Shown in pieces: positions 3,601 through 61,290 of a DNA stretch of 64,000 bases. Below the pieces are notes generated by a model. It ran no database searches. It was not told the DNA's origin and saw only the letters and a program-made list of their open reading frames with translations. The DNA is from Aptenodytes patagonicus (lineage: Eukaryota > Chordata > Aves > Sphenisciformes > Spheniscidae), in contig NC_134961.1 in NCBI RefSeq assembly GCF_965638725.1, positions 4,464,001 to 4,528,000 on the forward strand, written 5' to 3'. How positions within the stretch are numbered: position 1 is the stretch's first letter; the number at the start of each line of letters is the position of its first letter. The translations under genes and the position numbers were made by a program.

Positions 3601-4244
3601 CTTTTCAAACTGTGCAGTCCCAAGCCCTGCACCCGGGTAGCCTGTGGGCTGCCTGCAGTAAGCGCAGCACTGAGCTCCTGCTGAAGCAGAGCAGGAGAGG
3701 ATAACGCAGGCAGCAGAGGAAGGGCCCATCGCATTTGGTAGCGCTCACAGCAAACCCTGGGTGCCCCAGCTTGGTGCAGCCTCCCCGCACACCGTAATGG
3801 TGCTGTGGACACGCGTCGCAGGAGCCGATAACCTTGTGCTCTCTTCTCTTCCAGCTCGTCATTCTTCTTTCCAACTTCGGAGGCCAGCTGGGCCTTTGGA
3901 TGAGCTGCTCAGTTGTTTGCGTCATTGAGATCATTGAGGTCTTCTTCATCGATTCGCTTTTCATCGTAATGCGGCGCCAATGGCAAAAGGCAAAGAAATG
4001 GTGGAACGACCAAAAAAGGGACCGGTCGGGGAAGACACAGCAGGGCAGCGATCTGGAGAGGCAGGGCCACGATAATCCCGTCTGCATCGATGAGGACTTG
4101 CCCACCTTCAACACCGCCCTCCGCCTGCCGCTGCCCCAGGACAACCCCTTGCCCAGGACTCCCCCCCCCAATTACAGCACTTTGCGGCTAGAGACTGCGT
4201 TCACAGAGCAGCTGCCCGATACACTAGAGGTGGGGCAACACTGA
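574..4244 (+). CDS. SCNN1G: SCNN1G, epithelial sodium channel gamma subunit (3' part, seven coding exons)
   Basis: The gamma subunit joins alpha and beta in the amiloride-sensitive Na+ channel of apical epithelial membranes. Coding exons are 574-672, 1888-2005, 2499-2577, 2663-2720, 3079-3140, 3342-3417 and 3855-4244, all with GT-AG borders and compatible phases. They give 293 residues plus stop, about 45% of the roughly 650-aa family length. Visible are the cysteine-rich thumb (CLHSCFQ, CGCAQY), the palm strands, TM2 with the S-C-S selectivity filter (LWMSCSVVC) and a C-terminal PPPNYSTL PY motif for NEDD4-family ligases. The QLGLWMSCSVVC and EIIEVFFID blocks mark it as gamma rather than alpha or beta. 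The N-terminal half (TM1, finger, furin/prostasin tract) lies off the left edge. The post-TM2 tail is diverged and basic. SCNN1B follows downstream on the same strand, as in human. Confidence 0.96.
1888..2005 (+). CDS. SCNN1G: SCNN1G coding exon, cysteine-rich thumb
   Basis: This 118-bp exon encodes ICLHSCFQKAMVDSCGCAQY and on to KKNPNW. It follows a CCCCCAG acceptor and ends before GTAAGT. Its length equals that of the paralogous beta exon at 30501 (118 bp). The closely spaced cysteines belong to the disulphide ladder of ENaC thumb domains. Confidence 0.95.
2499..2577 (+). CDS. SCNN1G: SCNN1G coding exon
   Basis: This 79-bp exon encodes (M)YCYYRLHEKFVKEQLGCQQI and CKDAC, continuing the cysteine-rich thumb. 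It has a TCTTGCAG acceptor and a GTAAGT donor. Both borders split codons in phase with the neighbouring exons. Confidence 0.94.
2663..2720 (+). CDS. SCNN1G: SCNN1G coding exon
   Basis: This 58-bp exon encodes (S)FKEWALTTSIAQWPSTVSE, the conserved ENaC segment ending the thumb. The acceptor is CTCTCCAG and the donor GTCAGT. The paralogous beta exon at 31630 is also 58 bp. Confidence 0.94.
3079..3140 (+). CDS. SCNN1G: SCNN1G coding exon
   Basis: This 62-bp exon encodes DWMLRVLSWDKGQKINKKLN, with an ATTTCCAG acceptor and a GTAAGT donor. Its length and phase match the beta exon at 32000. Confidence 0.93.
3342..3417 (+). CDS. SCNN1G: SCNN1G coding exon, palm strand before TM2
   Basis: This 76-bp exon encodes (K)TDLANLMVFYKDLNERFISE and NPANT, the last extracellular strand leading to the pore. 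It has a CTCTCAG acceptor and a GTAAGT donor. The beta exon at 32969 is also 76 bp. Confidence 0.94.
3855..4244 (+). CDS. SCNN1G: SCNN1G terminal coding exon, TM2, filter and PY tail
   Basis: This 390-bp exon encodes 129 residues and a TGA stop. It starts at LVILLSNFGGQLGLWMSCSV, which contains the degenerin-site serine, the amiloride-site glycine region and the S-C-S filter. Next come the TM2 helix, the cytosolic block RRQWQKAK and an acidic DEDLPTFNTAL stretch. Close to the C-terminus is PPPNYSTL, the PPxYxxL PY motif that recruits NEDD4-2. In human beta and gamma, loss of this motif causes Liddle syndrome. The linker between RRQWQKAK and DNPVCIDEDL differs strongly from mammals. Confidence 0.96.
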   Translation, partial: LVILLSNFGGQLGLWMSCSVVCVIEIIEVFFIDSLFIVMRRQWQKAKKWWNDQKRDRSGKTQQGSDLERQGHDNPVCIDEDLPTFNTALRLPLPQDNPLPRTPPPNYSTLRLETAFTEQLPDTLEVGQH

Positions 4245-16199: not shown

Positions 16200-16310
16200 T
16201 GAAATGACAAGGGGCGGGATGGGGCGGGACTGGGGCGGGGGAGGCGGCGGGGCCGCTCCCGCTCTCAGCGGGGAGCGCTGCCGGAGCCGTGCGGGCGGCA
16301 GGTACGGGGG
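16200..16310 (+). promoter_or_regulatory. SCNN1B: Probable SCNN1B promoter and non-coding first exon
   Basis: Three GGGGCGGG GC boxes (16211-16218, 16221-16228 and 16232-16239) open a CpG-rich block. The block continues to a GCGGCAG|GTACGG donor-like site at about 16302. Mammalian SCNN1B has a GC-rich promoter and an untranslated first exon, and the coding exon at 22029 begins with a splice acceptor, so an upstream 5' UTR exon is required. The placement here is inference: GC boxes plus a donor, no transcript. A G13 run and other G-rich stretches lie nearby. Confidence 0.45.
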
Positions 16311-16357
16311 GACCGGGGGCGGCCGTGGGGGGGACCGGGGAGCGGGGTCGGGGACGG

Positions 16358-16445
16358 CCGGGGACGGGGGCCCCGAGCCGCCGCCGGAGGGATGCCCGCG
16401 TCCGCGGGCATCCCTCCGGCGGCGGCTCGGGGCCGCCGTCCCCGG
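16358..16445. repeat. 88-bp near-perfect palindrome (inverted repeat)
   Basis: Two 43-bp arms, 16358-16400 and 16403-16445, are reverse complements with a single mismatch (16368 against its partner) and a 2-bp TC spacer. The inner 28 bp of each arm match perfectly. The whole lies in the CpG-rich block just downstream of the presumed SCNN1B first-exon donor. It could extrude a very stable GC-rich hairpin or cruciform, or could be a fold-back sequencing or assembly artefact. Confidence 0.9.
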
Positions 16446-22028: not shown

Positions 22029-22347
22029 ACAGCAGCATGAACCTGAAGAAGTACTTCATTCGGGCGCTGCACCGCCTGCAGAAGGGCCCTGGTTACACCT
22101 ACAAGGAGCTGCTGGTCTGGTACTGCGACAACACCAACACCCACGGCCCAAAGCGCATCATCAAAGAGGGGCCAAAGAAGAAATTAATCTGGTTCTTCCT
22201 AACGCTGCTCTTTGCGTCTCTGGTCTTCTGGCAGTGGGGCATCCTCATTAACACCTACCTCTCCTATAACGTCACGTCATCTCTCTCTATTGGCTTTAAG
22301 ACCATGAAGTTCCCAGCAGTCACGGTCTGCAATGCCAACCCTTTCAA
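22029..22347 (+). CDS. SCNN1B: SCNN1B exon with start codon, TM1
   Basis: The exon begins after CTTGCAG (22026-22028); 8 bp of 5' UTR precede the ATG at 22037. It encodes residues 1-103 plus two bases of Lys104: [20 protein letters not shown], the His36-Gly37 motif in [11 protein letters not shown]1 ([20 protein letters not shown]) and the first extracellular strand ending CNANPF. The donor is GTAAGT. TM1 and the N-terminus are close to mammalian beta apart from Lys43. Confidence 0.96.
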
Positions 22348-25300
22348 GTAAGTTTTTCTTCACCTAATTTACCCAGTCGTGCTTTAACACCCTCCGTTGT
22401 ATGGCTAGCGCAAGGTACTGTGGAGCCACTCCTGTCTCAGATACCATGTTAGGAGCATCAATGGAAATGATCCTTTGACTCACCAAGTGGCACTAAAAAC
22501 CAAATAAAGGAGGACAACATAAAGGCGAACGGCTCAGGTCCAGAGGAGGGTCGGTGTGCCTGCGACTTCGCCTGGGTTTCCTTACTGTATCAGTTAATCT
22601 AATGATGGGTATTGCCTCCCTGTAAACTTTCCCTGGCTCAGGGAAAACTCGAAGTTCAACTCACTTGTCACAACCAAAATCAGTCTCTCGATCTTTCCCC
22701 ACAATTCTTTTCTTTCTCCTTCCTCGCCGTGAACGTACCTCTTATCTCTTACACTCCGGCCATTAAGAGCTTGTTAAACAGTAGTATCGGCTGGGAGCTG
22801 CAGTTATATAACTCGATCGTCATTTCAAAGGAGTAACTGATTTTTGTTAGAGTTGCTTCAAATTTATATCCATGCAATAGTGTAGCCCAAGGCAAGATGC
22901 TCTCGACCGACACACAGGAATTACTCTGGTGTTTTTTCATCTCTGCTTGCTAGAGATGTTTTGTGTAAACTATAGTGAATTACTGAAATACAACCAATTC
23001 ACTTCTGCACTGACAGAGCATTGTTCACCACCACAGCGCTCCCTGTTTATCCTCCCACTGGTTTTCTGCCCGACTGCAGGCTGCTGGGATGCCTGTGTCC
23101 GAGGTGGCCGTGCTCTGCACAGAGGCTCCCTTCGTTCTCCAGTAAATCTTTAGGCAGCGATCCGAGGTCCCCAGGAAGGTCCAAGCCAGCGGAGCGGCAG
23201 ATGGGCTGCTGCACGTCCCCACCGCCTTGACACTGCCTGGTAACCGCCCTTTGTCCTGCAGATACTCAGAGGTGAAGCATCTGCTGAAAGAACTGGACAG
23301 GCTCATCGAAGTGGCGCTGGAGAGGATCCTGCAGCCCGCGCCGGGGAACAGCAGCGAGAACGCCTCCCCGCCGCTCGACCTGGAGCTCTGGCACCAGATA
23401 CCGCTGGTCCTCATCGACGAGCATGACAAAGACAACCCCGTCATCGTGGACATCTTCGAGAGAAATCAGACTGCTCTGGGCAACCAGACTGCTGGGGGCA
23501 ACCAAACCGCTGCAGGCAACCAAACTGCTGCAGGCAACCAAACCGCTGTGGGCAACCAAACCGCTGCAGGCAACCAAACAGCTGTAGGCAACCAGACTGC
23601 TGGGGGCAACCAAACCGCTGCAGGCAACCAAACAGTTGTAGGCAACCAGACTGCTGGGGGCAACCAAACTGCTGCGGGCAACCAAACGGCTGCTCCACCT
23701 GCCCAAGCCAACACGACATCAGAAGAAAAGAAGTACAAGCTGGCGGTGAAGCTGGTGAGAGGGGTCCCGCGGGAGGCAGCCGGGAGGGGCGAGGGACGGG
23801 CAGCGCTGGGTGCCTCGGCAGGGATGCAGCGTGGAGATCGCTGCCTCTTCCCCACCAGCTGCCCACAGCCGCTCTGCCTCGGGGCTCTGGTCCGGCTGCG
23901 CCGGGGCCGGGGGCTGCCCATGCTGGTGGCATCCTCGGTACAGGGCAGTTTGCAGGTTATGAGATGTTATTTCAAGGCTCCAGGGCTGTTTGCTTGTTTT
24001 TTTGAGGAAGGCAGCACCGAGGTATTTTAAGATGTTTCTAAATTTTCAGAGGGGGTCTGATCCCCTGCAGGTTACACAGCCAGACATCCAGCTGAAGCTG
24101 CTGGATTTCTGCACATGGGGCCTGCAGCAGGATCATACCCTAAATATGCTTCCTTAAATGAAAGGAAACCCAGCAAGGAGCCATGTTGTTAGTCCATGAT
24201 GAATGTAAGTAGCTGCACAGCATCAGCAAGATCAGCAGGTTCCTCATAGAAAAAGGGACTGACAGCGCGTAGCAGCCTAGCACTGCATCAGAGGTGCAGG
24301 GTGGATCCTGCCAGCGGGTCCGTCAGCCTCTGGCGAGGGGGATGCTGGAAATGCTGGGCGGCAACAGGCAGTAACCGAGCTGTGCACAGCGTTGGTCGGT
24401 GGAGTCTGCCCGCAGCGCAGAGGACAATGCCGTACATCCTCTGGGGTCACCCAGCGCAGCCCTGGGTGCAGGGCAGAGCCAGGGCAGAGGTGCTCCGCGC
24501 AGGCTCCCTGCCGCCTTCACCTTTTCCTCGGGTCCGGCACCCAAAATGCCGGGGAGAGGCTGCGGCTGCTGCCCGTGCCCCTCTCCTGCTGTGGTCCTCA
24601 GCACAGAGGCACATGGTGGTCTCACGACTCCCCACCCTCTGCTCCCACGGAGGCTTCAAGGACCCTGCCTGACCAGACCTTGGAAGCTGGGGCGACTCCA
24701 GCCTTAAGGAATTGGCCAAAAAGTGACGTTTTCTGTAAGCTTGTGGAGGTAATGCTGGGACCGATGGAGAATCTGCCCAGCTGGGAAACCTCCCTGGGGA
24801 GGGACCCGTGGGTAAACACATGCAGATGTGACAGCTGGCTCCGCAGCACGCGCACCGTACGTCCCTCCTGCCGTCCCCACCCGCGGGACGGGCTCAGACC
24901 TGCCTGCTGTCTGTCCCCAGTGCAGCCATCAGGGCTCCGACAACTGCACCTACAGGAACTTCACCAGCGCGGCACAGGCGGTGACCGAGTGGTACATCCT
25001 GCAGTCCACGAGCATCCTCTCCAAAGTCCCGCTGCAAGAGAGAATCAGGATGGGCTACCAGGCAGAAGACATGATCCTGGCGTGTCTCTATGGGGCCGAA
25101 CCCTGCAACTACAAGTAGGTGCATACCGAGCTCCCTGCCCTTTTCTGTCACATTAGGAATGGTACGGGATGCTAAAGGCATGACAGCCTTTTTCTTTTCT
25201 CTTTTTAAGGTATGTATCAGTTAATAGAGAGATTTCTGCTGGTCCTTAACTCTAACAACATTTCCCAGAGGGTTTCTGGATGCGATCCTGGCTGAAACGG

Positions 25301-28300
25301 GTTATTTTAGGATAGCGCTGGCTTGAGTTTTAGTTTTGGATGGGCCGTTCTGCTCATGACATATCGAGACTAACAGCATCCGTGGGACCTTCCCAGGGTA
25401 TTTAGTGATAACCAGCTGCCGGCCCAGGTGCTGAGTCAGCGTACCCCTGGCACAGCAGTGCAACCCCCAGTTACAGCCCCCACTCTTTTTACACAAGGCT
25501 CTGAGAAATGCATTTTAGCCATCGTTGTTTATTACGAATGCCAAATTTCTATATCCAGTTTTGACAAACGTGAACACATAGCAGCAGCCCAGGCTGCAAG
25601 GAGTCCTGCCCCTTCTGCAAAGAGGCCAACGGAGACTTATTATCAAAGAACGAGATATAACACCGGCTAAAACCTGTTACCATAGCTCAGATCAAGCAAT
25701 TATTTCTCTCATCTGTGTGACAGACTATTCCTTTCCATTCCGACAAAGCGTTATCCCCAGTGGCTGTGTCTCAGTGCACACCAGTACCTTGTTTTGCTTT
25801 TTTTTCAACAGCAGATTGATTGAAATTATATCAGCTGAAATTTCTATACAGGCATTCAACAAACAAAGCAATTTAAAGTGAATCCCAGACATATGCATTA
25901 TTTTATAACCCTTTAGTCCTCCCTGAGAGTCACAGTTTTATGTGCATGATTCTTCCAGGAATTTCACCCAAATCTATCACCCAGACCACGGTAACTGCTA
26001 CATCTTTAACTGGGGCATGGACGAAGAGGCTTTGAATTCTTCCAACCCTGGAGCCGAGTTTGGTAAGAGAGAGCCCTGCTAAGGAGGAAGGAGCTAAAGG
26101 AACAGAAGTGCTGGGAGTTGTTTCATCTCTCAGTGGCCACTTCTGTTATATATGACAGATCTATGATTTCTGTGTCTCTGGAGCACTACAGCAGGGAGTA
26201 ACGGCTTTCCAGAAGGGGATAAGCCCCCAAAAGGGAAATTAGTGGAAACAAGTAATGTGACTACAGATGTTACACGTAATAGAAGTGCAACATCTGGATA
26301 GCTGAAATATCTGAGGCAGTGTCTGAATATTCACTCAGATATTTCCGTTCTGTGCATTCGCCATCATGCGTATTTATGCACAGGTAAGGCTGCTGTGACA
26401 GCCAGGCCCCGGCCCTTCCCCAAGGAACAGAGATTTCTGTGCACAGCGAGAAGAAAATAGACTCCGGTTTTTTTCCAAAGACTCGCATTTCAATACAATT
26501 CTTGTTCTGAGTGTTTTGTCTGGTGTCCCAGGGCTGAAGCTAATTCTGGACATCAGCCAGCAAGACTATATCCCCTACCTGTCATCTGCTGCCGGGGCCA
26601 GGCTCATGCTGCATCAGCAGAAGAGCTTCCCCTTCCTTAAGGATCAGGGCATCTATGCAATGGCTGGGACGGAAACCTCCATCGGCGTGTTAGTGGTATG
26701 TGTGGCATTCCTCTAGAGCAGATTGTCTGAGAATATTGTTATCTGATGGGACTGCAACCAAGTTTGTTTTAAGTCTTGGCTGAACTGGCTCAAACCAAAA
26801 GAGTCAAGGTGTACGCTAGCTGTGGGCTGGAACAATTTATGGAGACTTTTATGTAATTGTCCTGGCAAAGTGCTTTATTGAGCCAAAATACTGAGCTCGG
26901 GTCATTGTTCCCTCTTCCTTTAGCATGTCAGAAGGTGCCTTGCTAAAACATGCTGCTCTTGAACAGCCTCATCTGCCTCGATCCGCCCTGGGGAATGGGC
27001 TGCATCTCTTTCAGCTCTGCCGCCTACAATTCTTTGATTTTTTTTTTCAAAGCCAGCAGGGAATACAGGAATTACAGAGTCTCTGGAAAATGGGCACCAG
27101 GGACCTGGGGAGGAGCGATGACTACTGAAGTTTGCCATTTTGGTTTTCTTTCAGGATGAACTGGAACGGATGGGCTATCCCTACAGTGACTGCACCATGA
27201 ACGGGTCTGATGTCCCCGTAAAAAATCTCTATAGCCAATACAACACTTCCTATTCCATACAGGTAAAACACATTTTTAAATCAAACAAGGCTGTTTAGGA
27301 AAAATCATCAAAGCAATTAAAATTTTTGACTAGCGTGCAGGATTACTGGAGCATCAGCAATGATAAAGTAGAAAGCATAACCAAGTACAGGAACCTTCTT
27401 TTCTGGTAATAAACCAGCACTCGAGTCTGAACACTCAGTAGCCCCAGGTTTGGAAACGATCCCAGTGGATCCAGTGGAAATAACTGTGTATTGCAGGAGC
27501 AAGACCTAACGATGCAGGTATTAAAACTTGCATCAAAAGATAAGGAACATTGCTTTGGCAGGCAGCACAGTTCAGCGTAATCTTTGGTTTTCATTCTCAT
27601 ACCAAAACAGCTCATATGGCCAGGAAAGGGCATCAGCAATTATTGTTCCCTTAGCCAGCTATGAATTTTGTTTCATTTTGAGAGGGATGAACACGGTCAT
27701 TTCTGTCATTTTCTCAAAAGCCGAAACACAGCAAACCTCCCAGGATCTCTGTTGTTACACGGGACCCTGCTATGTGTGACCTACCAGCAAAGTGCTAACT
27801 TGCAGACAAAAAAGCAAGTATTTTTACCTCCACGTACGAGCGCAGTTTAATGCTGGTCCTTTCCTTGTACCCTGTCGCCTCAGAGCTCGGCTCCCCAAAG
27901 TGAAGGGTTCCCACGCATCCTGAAAAGCAGGCAAAGCGAGAGCAGGGTGTGCCTGGGCCCCTTGGTCCCTTAAAAACCACCGGTTCTTCAGTTCCCCCCC
28001 GTTTTGGCTCCCCGAGCAGCCCCGGTTGCCGTCACGCACCAGTCGGTTACTGCCTCGGCTCAGAGGGCAGAACCGCAGCGCCGGCCAAGGGGACCTCGTG
28101 CCCCCGTCCTGCCTGGCCTCACCCCCTCCCTGCACTGCTTTCACTGGGGGGTGCTGGGGACCGCTGGAGCCCCAGGGTGACAGAGCCAGGAGGCAGCCCC
28201 CTCCTTCGGCGCAGGGCAGAGCCTCTGGAACGGGCTGAAACTCCCAATAGCTTTGGCTAATGCCAGTTCCTTAATAATGTAGGGAACGCTGGGAAAACAC

Positions 28301-31300
28301 ATCTCCCAGAGCGTCCAGTGGGGAGCGCGGAGCTCCCCGTCCTGCCCAGGGTCTGTGCAGGGACCTCGGGCAGCAGCGGGAGGGACCCGACCTGCTCCCA
28401 GGCGGCTGCAGGCGCAGCGCTCGCCCGACGCTCCTCTGCCGGCTGCCCACCTAAGCCACAGGAGGCTGCAGAGCAGTTTTTCTCCTTTAAAAAGAATAAC
28501 TGCTCGTGCCACGTCATTAAGGCAATTAATTTCTTTTTCAGCTGTGAGAATACCTTTTTCCCCTACAATTTCCACGCTTGGCTGAAATCTTTTAATTATA
28601 GGTAGATCAACCAGCAAGGGGTGGACTCCAGTCATTACCCGTGTCCAACAGGCTAACTCCCCCGAACTCAAGGGGTTATTGAGCAATCGCCACAGCTGCG
28701 TGTGCCGCTGTAACCGGGACGGCAAAGCTGCTCCCTCCGCAGCAACCGCAGGCGCCGTCCTGCAGCGTGAAGGGTGGCTGCGGCTCTGGGGAGCTTTTGC
28801 CGAGATGTTAATGTGACACTTTTCATGAGATAGGCTGGCCTCTGCTGCTCGGGGTGCTCTGGGAGGATATAAGCTATCTATCTGGAGAACTGTTGGGCCC
28901 CGGGTTTTAGCTGTGGCGTTGGTCTAATGTGCAAAGCAGCTCGTATTTTGTGTCCGCGAGAAATATTTATCCCTGACAAGAGAGGAATATACAGGAGGGA
29001 TTCCTCTCCTGGACACTCCTACTCTTTTTAATCCTTTTCTCTTTAAGGGAATCAAGTCATTTTTCACCCTGAAAATGCCTGCTTGTTTTGCATAGGAAAT
29101 GAAGACAGACCTTTGCCTTTTCTTCACTTTAAAATTGGGATGAGAAAGTTGAGTGTTTGTAAACCTTGAATCTGTAGAAAAATACAGTGTAAACATTAAG
29201 CACTGGTTAATTTGTAACAGGCTATAACATAAGGGAGAAGCATTTCTGGAGGGTGAGATCTGGCAATAAGGAAAACATCAAAACCATTTTGGGGGTTATT
29301 TACAAAAGCCTGAAGAATACACCCCAGACAAGTGGGAAGGCTTTGGTCTAGCAGGGTTTTTTATATTTCTGCCTTTATATAATTATAACAATTGGACCAC
29401 TTTACCCTACTCTTTAAGATGCTTGTATAACGTTTAAGCAAATACTTGAAATGATTGCATTATTACTTAAAAGTTGCTAAATGCTGACTGGGGTTCTATG
29501 TCCACATAATTCACGTCACTTCAGAGACCTCTCAGCAAAATCCGGCTTTTCCATCACTCCCTGATTGCAGTGAACTCTGTAAGCATTTTGTATCACACAG
29601 AAATGCTCTGGTTGTTCTACCTAGCTGGAGCTGTTAAATTTAATTATCTTTTCATAGACTTTGTTATTGCTTTGTGCACTGTTTCATCCAGAATCCCACT
29701 CCAATCTCAGATGATTAACTTCATGCCTCACTGAGCTAATGGCAGCGCTGCAGCCTGGCTCGCACACTGCCGAAGCTGCAGCTGCAATCCTTTCAAGGAG
29801 AGAAGCAGATGCACAGATAAGATAATTCAGATTTCTAAAACCTGCTCTTTATGTTGAAGTATTTTTAAAGTCCTGGCTTTAAAGTGGAAACCAGCCCTTT
29901 GTCAGTATGTCGTGTAAAGCCTGGAGACAACAGCAGTGTCTATGGGTGTAGTAGAACATTTTTATTCCTTTTTGGAAACTTCATATTACTTCCGTGAAGC
30001 TCTAAATAGTGAAGAAATGAGCAGTTTCTTGTGCGACTGGGAGCAGGCACTGAGTTCCCTTCTGCTCCTGCAAGGTGACTTACCCACGGGCAGCTTACAA
30101 CTAAGATGTACCTTAAAATCTGGAGGAGCAGCAGTAAAAATGCATCATAAAGAAAACCGTAACTGCCGTGCAACCCTACACATGGCAGCTTATCCACCCG
30201 CCTCGTCTTGCCGTTGTAAAGCCAGTGCGACTGGCTTCCAGAGCCTGCCGTGCCGCCTGGCGATGCTCGGTGCATGCTGGAGGATGGGATCATGCCATTG
30301 CACGGGGATGGGCTCTGGCAGCACCCGCTCCCTCTGCGGCTTCAGCCTTCTCTGTGTGCAGCCACAAAACCATCTGTTCAGCGCAAAAGAGAGAAAATAC
30401 CTCAGGGCCGAGTAATTCTCACAGCCAGCGTAGACTCCAGCAGCAGAGGTGCGCAGGGGGTTCAGCCCACGTCTAAGCAGCTCCCTGTTCCTTTTTTCAG
30501 GCTTGCCTGCGCTCTTGTTTCCAAAATCACATGATTGAAATCTGTGGATGTGGTCACTATATGTTTCCTTTACCTGAAGGGGTGAATTATTGCAATAACG
30601 AAGATAACCCAGGTTGGGGTAAGAACACGAACAAAACTAAATTGCACAGCTTCCCCAGGGTCCTGGCACGCAGGAGGGGCGGGAGCGGACACGAGCTTTA
30701 TTTGTAAATGCAACAGGTGAATGGCTTTTGCCTATGTAAAGTCTCCTCATGGCCGTTCGGGTCAGTGCCGGGGAGAAGGGGCGAAATCTTGGTCCTGGCC
30801 GTGGGCTGAGGGTCCTCAGCTTCCGCGCTGCCCCAGGGGAGGGCTCTCCCGGGGAGCTGGCTCCAGCCGGGGGAGGTAAGGGGACCCTCTGGGTACCAAA
30901 GGGAGAAAAAGGGGTAATGCTCTAGGCCTCCGTGCCTGAAGAGTTCAGAGACAAGCTGGCCCGAGCAGGGGCAATGGGCTCCTGCAAGGATACGCAGAGG
31001 TGTGGGGGGGTCTGGTGCTCCCCCACAGGCAGGCAGGGACCAGCAGCACGTCTCCGCACAGGCAGCTCCGGCAGGCACCCCTCCTACCCCTGCAGCTGGG
31101 CAGGGCTGTGCCAAAAACACTGACATCGGGCAAGCTGACTCTAGAGAAACAGTCTACAGAAAAAAAATATTTTTAATTTATTATTAAATTGTCTGACGGC
31201 TTTGCCTGAGCTTCTCAAGGCAGGGAAGGTTAGAGGGGAAGACAGCAAACCTGTGCAGCAGGCTCATACCTAAATATATATTTTATTAAATGAAATTGAT

Positions 31301-33863
31301 ATAATCCAGTAAGCGGGGTCCTTATCTAAACAGATGCTTTGATTTTTTTGTTTTCACCAAACAGCATATTGCTATTCATCACTGAGATCAAGTATAAGAC
31401 ACAGACAGATTTGTATTGACTCTTGTAAGGAAACATGCAAGTAAGTACGTAAGCTGTTTCTGGCAGCTGTAAAGGTGGAGGGGATCCTGCATTTCATCTC
31501 CCATCAATTCTGACCTTTCTAAAATGGCAGCGAATCATGCGGGCCTGCTTTTCTGCATGAGAACTGAAGTTCCAGTGACTTCAGAGGAGGGGAAACTTCT
31601 GTACCAATGTTCTCCCCTCCTCTCCCTAGCGACACGCAGTATAAGATGACCATCTCCATGGCAGACTGGCCGTCTGAAGCTTCGGAGGTAACACTGATTT
31701 CTTGTTTTGAAACATTCATTAATAATTACCTGTTCTTAGCCACATGAATCACTCGGTATTTTCAGAGCTAATGTCCAGGTAGCAAGTGCCTCTTTGCTAA
31801 ATTACACATTTTCAGCATGCAAACAAACACGAGTGCCAGGGCATGAGACAGGAGGAGGGACACCCCCAGGGCGGCTCCTCCACCCCGGGGGTCCTGCACC
31901 GAGTCCTGCAACTCCCTTGCAGCTCCCCTGGGTTCCTGCCCCAGCAGGCGCCCAGAAAGGATGCTTCTGCTCAGTTCTGAATGAGTTTTGTTTTCCTAGG
32001 ACTGGATTTTCCATATTCTGTCTTATGAAAGGGATATGTCAACAAATGTGACTCTGGACAGGTAAGTGAAAGGAACAACCACTTTATCTTCTCTATTGAG
32101 CCTGTTAACATTAGATTAACATGAACCTTGGCGATGGGCCAGAGCACATGTGTGCTAATGCAAAGGGAGGACAAGATTTGGCACATGTTTGCCTGGAAGA
32201 TACATAAAGCAAATCTGAAACGCACTTCGTGCATATCCTCTGCTCTCCGTAGTGACAAACTGGGTCAGGCAAACGTGAGTTAAGTTAAAATCGACATTAA
32301 CCGCAGCACTCCTGATCAGTTGCATATAGGAGTCTGGAAGCTCTGAAGCTGTGAACTGCCAGGGTCCAGCTCCTGGATTGTAACGTTCATCCCTTCGTAC
32401 TTAACGTCTTTGAATCTGCCAACAGCAGCAGCAGTAGGGGGGATGCACAAAAATTAGGGTAACTGCTGAATTACCCTTTGAAAACCTAAACCCTGAATTA
32501 GTGGGAAAAGAGGAGGGTTTTTTCCCCAAGGAAAAAAACCTAGAGAATCAGGAAATGGTTTCACAGATACTGGCTGATCTGTACACATTAAGTCCCCTGT
32601 AACGCAGCTGGTCGTGACGCAGCCGCTCTGTGCGTGCACACAGGAACACGAGGCGCAGGGCACCGAGGAGGGGCAACGGCCCCTCTAGACCAACCAGGGC
32701 AGCTGGGAAAAGCAAAGCAAACAGCACCAAAGAAGCTTCCACGTGCGCAAGTGCTGCTTCAGGAGGAACCTCAGAACCGCGTCTCTCTTCCCTTTGCAGC
32801 CAGTGGCACTTTTTAACTTCTTCCACCTGCCTGGCAGAGGTTTCAGCGGGCACTCGTGAGCAGCTCCGGCCGGGCTGTGCGCAGCCCTTCCCGCAGGCAG
32901 GCGTTGGAGCAGAGGCGCTGGGTGCCCGCAGGCCGGCTCTGTGCTGAGCTGCCGTTTGTCTCTTACAGAAACGGGATCATCAAGCTGAACATTTACTTCC
33001 AGGAGTACAACTACCGCACCATCTCGGAGTCTGCCGCCACGACGGTGAGTGCCCATCCCTGCCCCTTCTGCACAGCGCCCGGTGAGCAGACACAGAAACA
33101 AGTCACCCCAGATGCACAGGCAGGGCTCAGCTCCTCAGGGCTGATCAGCCCTGTCCGGGGACACTCCTCAGCGGGAGTCTGCCGAGTCCCTCAGTGCTGC
33201 TGCTTCACATGTCCGTGGCAATGAAGTGGACGAAGCTGCCTCCACTGTCCGGTTCGCAGTCCCCAGTTCGTTCTTCCCCTCCACCTCCCATCCCCATCAC
33301 CAGTGCGAGGCGGGTCACTGAGAAGCAGCACCAGGGAGTGCAGCCCCTGCAGGGCAGCACCCGCAAGGCGAGGGACTCAGCAGGCAGGTCCCTGGGGCAG
33401 GAGGGGCAGGAGCATCACCAGCACACAGGGTGATCGGCGGGGGCTGATGAGGGACCGGGGTCACCACCTCGGCTCACTCCTGCTCTCCTCCCCGCAGATC
33501 GTTTGGCTGCTGTCGAGCCTGGGAGGCCAGTTTGGGTTCTGGATGGGGGGCTCGGTGCTGTGCCTCATCGAGTTCGGGGAAATCATCATCGACGCGCTGT
33601 GGATCACCGTTATCAACATGATCAGCTGGTGCAAAGGCCTGAAGCAGAAGCGGGTGCAGGCGCGGTACCCGGATGCACCCCCGACAGTGTCGGAGCTGGT
33701 GGAGGCTCACACCAACCTGGGCTTCCAGCACGAGGACACGGATGCCCTGCCCAGGGACGAGGTGCTGCCCCCCGAGCCCGGCACCCCCCCGCCCAACTAT
33801 GACTCGCTGCGCGTCCAGCCCCTCGACGTCCTTGGTCCAGACAGTGACGCAGAAACCGAGTGA
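22037..33863 (+). CDS. SCNN1B: SCNN1B, epithelial sodium channel beta subunit (complete CDS, 12 coding exons)
   Basis: Beta subunit of the heterotrimeric ENaC that brings Na+ across apical epithelial membranes. Exons: 22037-22347, 23262-23754, 24921-25114, 25959-26062, 26532-26695, 27155-27262, 30501-30618, 31365-31440, 31630-31687, 32000-32061, 32969-33044, 33498-33863. All have GT-AG borders and phases agree; total 2130 bp, 709 aa. Human beta is 640 aa. Landmarks: gating His36-Gly37, TM1 about 50-71, thumb cysteines, degenerin-site Ser594, amiloride-region Gly601, filter GGS (605-607), PY motif PPPNYDSL. The extra length is explained by residues 172-249, thirteen N-Q-T repeats in the extracellular loop. 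The ATG at 22037 is the first in its exon and aligns with the mammalian start. Position 43, a palmitoylated Cys in mammalian beta, is Lys here, while the cytosolic Cys after TM2 (WCKGL) is kept. Confidence 0.97.
23262..23754 (+). CDS. SCNN1B: SCNN1B exon with the 13-fold NQT sequon array
   Basis: This 493-bp exon encodes residues 104-268 and is unusually long for this position. The first part ([20 protein letters not shown] and the [11 protein letters not shown] strand) aligns well with mammalian beta. After VDIFER come thirteen N-Q-T hexapeptides (172-249), then [19 protein letters not shown] and a GTGAGA donor. Two more sequons (N-S-S, N-A-S) precede the array and one (N-T-T) follows it. 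The cysteine pair of mammalian beta in this segment (C-N-A-H-G-C) is absent. The frame stays open past the donor to 24030, but the next exon (CSHQGSDNC) requires splicing at 23754. Confidence 0.95.
23464..23697 (+). repeat. SCNN1B: In-frame minisatellite, 13 x 18 bp, encoding NQTAxG repeats
   Basis: Thirteen uninterrupted 18-bp units with consensus AACCAAACYGCTGYRGGC encode N-Q-T-A-x-G, where x is L, G, A or V. Asn, Gln and Thr are identical in all 13; the fourth residue is Ala except in unit 10 (Val), and the last unit ends in Pro. Units 7-9 (23572-23625) and 10-12 (23626-23679) form a 54-bp second-order duplication with three differences. Each unit is a consensus N-glycosylation site. Because the unit length is a multiple of three, other frames are also open; they are not separate genes. 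Confidence 0.98.
24921..25114 (+). CDS. SCNN1B: SCNN1B exon, finger domain
   Basis: This 194-bp exon encodes residues 269-332 plus two bases: [20 protein letters not shown], then [16 protein letters not shown] and [12 protein letters not shown]. This is a canonical beta segment with two N-linked sequons. Acceptor GTCCCCAG, donor GTAGGT. Confidence 0.95.
25959..26062 (+). CDS. SCNN1B: SCNN1B exon
   Basis: This 104-bp exon encodes (K)[20 protein letters not shown] and on to NPGAEF, the conserved ENaC G-N-C-Y-x-F-N block. Acceptor TTCCAG, donor GTAAGA. Confidence 0.95.
26532..26695 (+). CDS. SCNN1B: SCNN1B exon, palm domain
   Basis: This 164-bp exon encodes (G)[20 protein letters not shown] through [14 protein letters not shown]. 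It belongs to the beta-ball/palm strands of the ENaC fold. Acceptor GTCCCAG, donor GTATGT. Confidence 0.95.
27155..27262 (+). CDS. SCNN1B: SCNN1B exon
   Basis: This 108-bp phase-0 exon encodes 36 residues, [20 protein letters not shown] through YNTSYSIQ, with N-G-S and N-T-S sequons. Acceptor CTTTCAG, donor GTAAAA. Confidence 0.95.
30501..30618 (+). CDS. SCNN1B: SCNN1B exon, cysteine-rich thumb
   Basis: This 118-bp exon encodes [20 protein letters not shown] and continues to NNEDNPGW. It follows a 3.2-kb intron. Acceptor TTTTTCAG, donor GTAAGA. It is the paralogue of the gamma exon at 1888. Confidence 0.95.
31365..31440 (+). CDS. SCNN1B: SCNN1B exon
   Basis: This 76-bp exon encodes [20 protein letters not shown] and KETC between an AACAG acceptor and a GTAAGT donor. 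Codons are split at both borders in matching phase. Confidence 0.94.
31630..31687 (+). CDS. SCNN1B: SCNN1B exon
   Basis: This 58-bp exon encodes (N)[19 protein letters not shown], almost identical to mammalian beta. Acceptor TCCCTAG, donor GTAACA. Confidence 0.95.
32000..32061 (+). CDS. SCNN1B: SCNN1B exon
   Basis: This 62-bp exon encodes [20 protein letters not shown] plus two bases of Arg563, with an N-V-T sequon. Acceptor TTCCTAG, donor GTAAGT. Confidence 0.95.
32969..33044 (+). CDS. SCNN1B: SCNN1B exon, strand before TM2
   Basis: This 76-bp exon encodes (R)[20 protein letters not shown] and SAATT, the strand leading into the pore. Acceptor TCTTACAG, donor GTGAGT. Confidence 0.95.
33498..33863 (+). 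CDS. SCNN1B: SCNN1B terminal coding exon, TM2, filter and PY tail
   Basis: This 366-bp exon encodes residues 589-709 and TGA. It begins [20 protein letters not shown], with the degenerin-site serine and the GGS filter, then TM2 and the cytosolic tail. The tail keeps the [12 protein letters not shown] block and ends with [17 protein letters not shown], the PY motif (PPxYxxL) for NEDD4-2. A Cys in SWCKGL matches the second palmitoylation site of mammalian (mouse) beta. Confidence 0.97.
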
Positions 33864-60670: not shown

Positions 60671-61290
60671 AACGGCCGCAGCTGCCAGGGCCGGAGGAGG
60701 GTCTCGTGGAAGGTCCTCCCAGGCCCTCCGGGACCCCGCTGCACCGGGGGCAGCTGCCTGCCGCCCTCCAGAAAACACCTCCCGCCCGCAGGCCTCGGCC
60801 CGCCTGGTCCGGCCGTAGCGAGCAACGAAATGAGTCCCTTCTCCCCCCCCCCCGCAGCCGGCAGGGCAGGGCCTCTTCACAGAGCGCCGCGGCGAGCGAG
60901 GTCTCGGATCCGCTGTGGGTTTACGTGGTCGCTAAAGGCGTTCAGCTCGCGTGCAAGAGGCGGCCGTGCTGAGGAGAACCCCCGGGCGCGCCTGCAGCGC
61001 TGCGGAGCCCAAAGGACGGAGCCGGTGCAGGACAAGCCGCGGGGCCTGGGGACGGGCGAGCTGGTTTTTTTTCCTCACAGACTGGCCCCAAAGCCCTCCC
61101 CCTATTTACTCTCTTCACTCCGTTTTGTACCTTTCCCTATAAAGTGCATCCACCAGAGTCCGGACAGCCCAGCTCGCACCGTTCCTCATGTTCTTGCCTG
61201 CGCATCAGCACACAGGCCCCAGTGAAAACGGGCAGGGGGGTGATCCTGCCCCGGCTCCAAGCAGTCTGCCATAAGGGCTGATTGGTGGTA
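60671..61290. other. GGA2-COG7 intergenic spacer
   Basis: A short head-to-tail spacer between the COG7 promoter and the presumed end of the GGA2 transcript. It includes a C-run (around 60840-60851) followed by CAG that mimics a splice acceptor. No exon match is seen. Confidence 0.5.

Follow-up and report, generated by a model that had tools for sequence, protein, structure and literature searches.

Thirteen tandem N-glycosylation sequons in a predicted penguin beta-ENaC

The beta-ENaC gene (SCNN1B) of Aptenodytes patagonicus contains, within exon 3, an uninterrupted array of 13 in-frame 18-bp units (23464..23697, + strand), each of which encodes an NQT sequon. Positions are those of the window, the 64,000-nucleotide stretch of DNA that was analysed. 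A first-pass annotation had described this array, and its coordinates, frame, unit count, spacing and residue range (172-249) all proved exact. The gene is intact, the array occupies a defined position in the channel, and there are no non-synonymous differences among the N, Q and T codons of its units. We consider it probable that the array is a coding minisatellite, housed in a tolerant loop and N-glycosylated into a flexible arm. That estimate covers the glycosylated flexible arm itself; two alternatives considered below, a neutral minisatellite and a mechanosensory tether, contest only the effect of the arm and overlap with it.

The array lies in an intact SCNN1B gene

The host gene has 12 coding exons (numbered 2-13), all on the + strand, with 709 codons and a stop codon (33861-33863) in an intact frame. 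Coding exon 2 (22037..22347) provides the ATG and the first transmembrane helix. It is followed by exon 3 (23262..23754), which carries the array between an AG acceptor and a GT donor, by exon 4 (24921..25114), aligned to human beta-ENaC (PDB 6wth chain B), and by coding exons 5-13 (nine exons with their introns, 25959..33863). A Pfam search of three pieces assigned the first and last coding exons to the ASC family; exon 3 matched no Pfam family at E up to 1. At the internal boundaries, AG is present at 11/11 acceptors and GT at 11/11 donors. As these boundaries were placed by eye, the reading phase and the protein alignment, which agree with them, are stronger evidence than the splice sites.

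When compared with the human ENaC structures, the encoded protein scored 1011 bits against 6wth_B (beta), 450 against 6wth_C (gamma) and 377 against 6wth_A (alpha). Outside the insertion it matches human beta-ENaC along its length; shared features include the GRIP strands that flank the insertion and, in the last exon, a PPPNY (PY) motif near the C-terminus. The earlier identification of the gene as SCNN1B is borne out by this score, the intact exons and the PPPNY motif. We considered whether the locus might be a pseudogene, which the intact 12-exon, 709-codon gene rules out. No Rfam match at gathering score was found within the window. A search for relatives of exon 3 returned 14 pattern-matching stretches among viral contigs and 95 among prokaryote contigs; none of either set encodes a relative, as expected of a vertebrate gene.

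Tandem arrays are prone to mis-assembly, and the array could be an artefact of assembly or annotation, with a wrong copy number or with the repeat spliced out of the transcript. We regard this as very improbable. The array contains nine distinct 18-bp sequences among its 13 units, the frame is unbroken over 234 bp, and both flanks are intact. Skipping of exon 3 is unlikely, as its 493 nt are not divisible by 3 and its loss would break the frame. The four GT sites within the array, judged by eye, look like poor donors.

Units and higher-order period of the array

The sequons are spaced six residues apart and NQT is present in 13/13 units. The first-pass annotation wrote the units as NQTAxG; this holds for NQT throughout, but the units are not uniform. 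Units 1-12 follow NQT[A/V]xG, unit 10 (NQTVVG) being the sole one with V in place of A after NQT, and the last (unit 13) is NQTAAP. The variable residue x is A six times, G three times, V three times and L once. Chance as the origin of the array is ruled out by the 13 in-frame units, and when all six frames of the window were searched for three sequons at six-residue spacing, the array was the sole match. With 13 head-to-tail, in-frame units of 18 bp, the array falls within the unit size of coding minisatellites (VNTRs; about 10-100 bp). It resembles in this the mucin-type coding VNTRs such as MUC1, where an in-frame minisatellite likewise encodes a repetitive stretch that is glycosylated (here, that is predicted to be). 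The mucins bear chiefly O-glycans, whereas each unit here encodes an N-glycan acceptor.

Tandem Repeats Finder independently covered most of the array (23479-23693), with a period of 18 (score 276) and a period of 54 (score 360). Mean identity among units 2-12 was 0.924 at lag 3, 0.911 at lag 6 and 0.833 at lag 1, and the lag-3 peak was significant when unit order was shuffled (p = 0.008). The lag-3 peak, together with the 54-bp period, indicates that both single units and blocks of three were probably duplicated as the array grew. We count this pattern in favour of the glycosylated arm, whose minisatellite would have grown in frame through 18-bp and 54-bp duplications.

When both strands are considered, four of the six frames of the array are fully open, a fifth has a stop at its last codon only and the sixth has two stops. 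Several frames stay open across the array because the unit length is a multiple of three; only the SCNN1B frame is treated as coding.

The array replaces a loop of the GRIP domain

In the alignment to 6wth_B, the array's first Asn (residue 172) lies opposite human beta residue 170, and the alignment resumes at Tyr262, opposite human Cys189. By these limits, 92 residues (170-261) replace the 21 of human beta (168-188). Human beta-ENaC has an additional GRIP disulfide (PMC6197857). Cys189 presumably belongs to it. Exon 3 (23262-23754) encodes no cysteine in frame and Cys189 aligns to Tyr262, so this additional disulfide has probably been lost. As the bond is documented here from human beta only, its absence is read as a lineage difference and not as bearing on what defines beta.

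The segment immediately before the array is, by our own assignment, strand P2 of the GRIP domain. In alpha- and gamma-ENaC, the second (distal) protease site likely lies on the C-terminal side of P2 (PMC6197857). Given the alignment and the placement of P2, the array stands at beta's counterpart of the alpha/gamma cleavage loop, and the claim that a sequon array has been inserted in the extracellular region is supported. The two differ in content: the alpha and gamma loops hold polybasic cleavage sites, but the array is without any basic residue. Beta is described as the member of the alpha-beta-gamma channel that does not undergo such processing (PMC8791634, PMC6197857). In the part of a PMC8791634 table available to us, without its column headings, the chicken and turtle rows give no beta cleavage site and all four middle columns are blank.

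Human beta residues 168-178, opposite which the array begins, are unmodelled in a 3 A structure (PMC7413742), which we count in favour of a flexible glycosylated arm. In an earlier human structure, however, beta was resolved over almost the whole stretch from helix alpha1 to helix alpha2, which its authors credited to the additional disulfide and a bound Fab (PMC6197857). The loop in human beta is thus not simply disordered, and this counts against the arm.

The unmodelled human residues would equally suit a neutral minisatellite that slippage or unequal exchange had lengthened within a loop indifferent to length. The sequons would then be passengers, possibly glycosylated, with no adaptive effect. 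Few regions of ENaC are as poorly conserved as the GRIP domain (PMC8791634), and the 54-bp pattern, like the homogenisation of the units, is consistent with duplication in the recent past; both agree with this neutral reading, which we hold to be a real possibility though one short of even. For a trafficked channel, on the other hand, the addition of 13 glycans would be unlikely to remain wholly without cost or effect.

Codon changes suggest possible retention of the sequons

The codons of the array bear most directly on the choice between kept and passenger sequons. We counted the fewest changes per site across the array codons, those in the x codon being counted by hand. In the N, Q and T codons, all five of the changes required at minimum are synonymous, with p = 0.0003, 0.0007 and 0.0017 at transition weights of 1, 2 and 4, respectively. 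This argues for the arm and against a neutral array. Outside the x codon, third positions hold 5/6 of the changes (p = 0.018).

Other tests are weaker and count against the arm (p = 0.012-0.12), being marginal or not significant in a manner that suits the neutral reading. Allowing any sequon-preserving change gave p = 0.03, and the N and T codons alone p = 0.012. The synonymous share of the sequon codons did not differ significantly from that of the x codon (p = 0.12), and comparison with the x and A codons combined gave p = 0.07. There are no silent changes in the A codon, nor in the G codon of units 1-12, and recent homogenisation therefore accounts for part of the conservation. In addition, Q is conserved as much as N and T, though it is not required by the sequon. 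Homogenised units and Q conservation also weigh against the arm. Taken together, the codon pattern favours sequons that have been kept, in a suggestive but not decisive manner.

Predicted N-glycosylation

All 13 array units provide an N-X-S/T acceptor in which neither X nor the +3 residue is Pro. By the same rule (no Pro at X or after), the protein has 24 predicted acceptors; the array raises their number from 11 to 24. The core protein comes to 79 kDa, and glycans on the 24 candidate sites would be predicted to shift it by tens of kDa. Exon 3 contains 16 N-X-S/T triplets, in agreement with the first-pass annotation, which took each as a possible N-glycan. One of them, N137, reads N-A-S-P and is outside the 24. 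A proline after the sequon makes a poor acceptor, leaving 15 good candidates in the exon. The same annotation had mammalian beta carrying only scattered sequons, which understates the case: human beta is the ENaC subunit with the most predicted N-glycan sites, namely 11 (PMC6197857), the same number as found here outside the array.

Not every sequon need be occupied. Some sequons with an internal Cys are skipped by STT3A, as are closely spaced NXS sites, and skipping in SHBG, a single protein, affected NXS more than NXT sites (PMC4750078). N276 (NCT), outside the array, has an internal Cys. On the basis of these data, many of the 13 NXT sites are likely to be used. Since each unit presents an NXT acceptor in what is likely an unfolded stretch, many of the array sites would be glycosylated co-translationally. 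Glycans matter to the channel more widely: they are needed for ENaC maturation and surface expression, and a role as shear tethers has been suggested for those of alpha-ENaC (PMC10178586).

Extended arm or folded solenoid

AlphaFold2 was run on exon 3 alone with no alignment, and returned a model with a mean pLDDT of 62 and a pTM of 0.43. Over model residues 71-140, which make up the bulk of the array, pLDDT was 76-84 and every 18 residues of chain formed three short strands, giving a beta-solenoid. That AlphaFold2 gave a folded solenoid, and not an extended chain, counts against the glycosylated arm. The array might accordingly be imagined as a hexapeptide beta-solenoid whose 18-residue coils each comprise three hexapeptides. 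It would then be a stiff rod lined by ladders of Asn and Thr, most of it without glycans. The 54-bp higher-order period would correspond to one such coil. For a translation of the array in a wrong frame of the opposite strand, the model had long strands, a pLDDT of 33-51 over the repeat and an overall mean pLDDT of 42. AlphaFold2 does not, therefore, give a solenoid for just any repeat, and the difference in pLDDT lends the predicted fold some support; the control is only a partial one because its composition differs from that of the array.

We nevertheless find the solenoid quite improbable. Given random perfect repeats, AlphaFold2 produces solenoids in >40% of cases, most of these at a pLDDT of 70 or more, and models human mucins as solenoids as well (PMC11795689), a bias that tells against the model, as do its low mean pLDDT and pTM. 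Foldseek returned 82 matches at E up to 10, with none at E 0.001 or better (best 0.32). The best 50 of these 82 include bactofilin, MinC and ice-binding proteins (probability up to 0.54), which we take to be beta-helical folds and which speak for a solenoid. With phmmer, the array matched LpxA, presumably a hexapeptide enzyme, at E = 0.31; an unrelated RNA polymerase chain scored better (E = 0.12). No significant match to a known solenoid was thus found by Pfam, Foldseek or phmmer. In a fully glycosylated solenoid, moreover, neighbouring sugars of a stack would be about 4.8 A from each other, an arrangement that seems unfeasible.

A glycosylated extended arm is likelier than a solenoid, because glycosylation acts on the unfolded chain. 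As six is divisible by two and by three, the sugars would face one way in an extended strand or in a polyproline-like chain. We think a flexible arm more likely than the rod-like one that the first-pass annotation proposed.

Possible effects on the channel

On the reading that we favour, the loop after P2 tolerates length, and the minisatellite within it would yield a flexible, glycan-bristled arm at the outer rim of the beta subunit, with both the occupancy and the extended shape being predictions. Such an arm could shield, tether or do nothing, and bulk effects seem the least demanding. Bulk would be its chief means of action: it would screen the periphery and gain additional glycocalyx contacts that may alter the shear response or surface stability. 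The first-pass annotation had suggested that it could act on proteases, shear gating or surface residence. The array also lies within the domain on which proteases act to gate the partner subunits.

A more specific proposal is that the glycans link beta-ENaC to the glycocalyx as a mechanosensory tether, the length of the array setting shear activation in a force-from-filament manner. In delta-ENaC, engineered N-glycosylation motifs raise the shear response, and in the construct tested the effect was largely abolished by hyaluronidase, i.e. it depended on the ECM (PMC7958617). Like those motifs, the array adds N-glycan acceptors to an ENaC ectodomain, and it would represent that intervention in an extreme, naturally occurring form. 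It differs in that one or two sites in the palm and knuckle of delta were mutagenised there (PMC7958617), as opposed to 13 natural sites in the beta GRIP domain. Only certain glycan positions mattered in that work, which weighs against the arm in general and the tether in particular. Among the alpha sites, only those in the palm and knuckle had an influence; another three in alpha, and three native ones in delta, were without effect, and a multi-site study cited there found no obvious change in shear response (PMC7958617). The array, in the beta GRIP loop, is outside the places probed in PMC7958617. We judge the tether unlikely.

Rather unlikely, too, is that the array is an evolved rheostat, a length-variable N-glycan brush in which each 18-bp unit adds one sugar chain. 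Unit number would then tune glycocalyx coupling, protease access or surface life, with copies differing among bird lineages by salt and water economy.

The evidence for N-glycan tethers of ENaC in the open-access work available to us comes from mutants with one or a few sites removed or added. A natural subunit whose predicted glycan count is more than doubled, and in a defined loop, makes the role of the glycans directly testable. The array is possibly an N-glycan counterpart of the mucin VNTRs, in an ion channel. Among the matches listed from the open-access literature, a scope outside which most subscription journals fall, there was no description of a sequon array in ENaC, as the first-pass annotation had supposed. 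The repeat peptides of the array were not found in the open-access literature either, and the main text of PMC8791634 has no words beginning with glycan, glycosyl or insert.

Neighbourhood and comparison with chicken

Upstream of SCNN1B on the same strand lies a gamma-ENaC-like last exon (about 3798-4241, +) with GGQLGLWMSCS and PPPNY. We take it to belong to SCNN1G on account of the motifs GGQLGLW and PPPNY. A chicken SCNN1G primer matches inside this exon with 3 mismatches in 20, although 1/100 shuffled primers also matched. SCNN1G and SCNN1B are known neighbours, and the gamma-like exon upstream fits this synteny.

A primer pair for exons 2 and 3 of chicken SCNN1B has been published (PMC3851161). 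At 22306-22328, 22 of the 23 bases of the exon 2 primer agree with the window. The exon 3 primer had no match in the window within 3 mismatches, and its best site in the joined coding sequence had 8. The two results make chicken an unlikely source of the sequence and suit another bird, short of proof. If the frame of the exon 2 primer is carried over, the exon 3 primer translates as LNNSNA; this stretch thus seems to be rich in sequons in chicken as well, but has no bearing on whether chicken carries the array. Judging by these primers, birds seem to differ at the glycan-rich start of exon 3.

Some 6 kb before the SCNN1B start codon, GC-rich short tandem repeats with periods of 10 and 22 occur at 16211-16369, possibly marking the SCNN1B promoter or an untranslated first exon. 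The most GC-rich part of the window is at 60-62 kb (GC 0.67). Within it, an open frame on the - strand that starts at 60920 includes a 22-residue stretch resembling the first exon of COG7.
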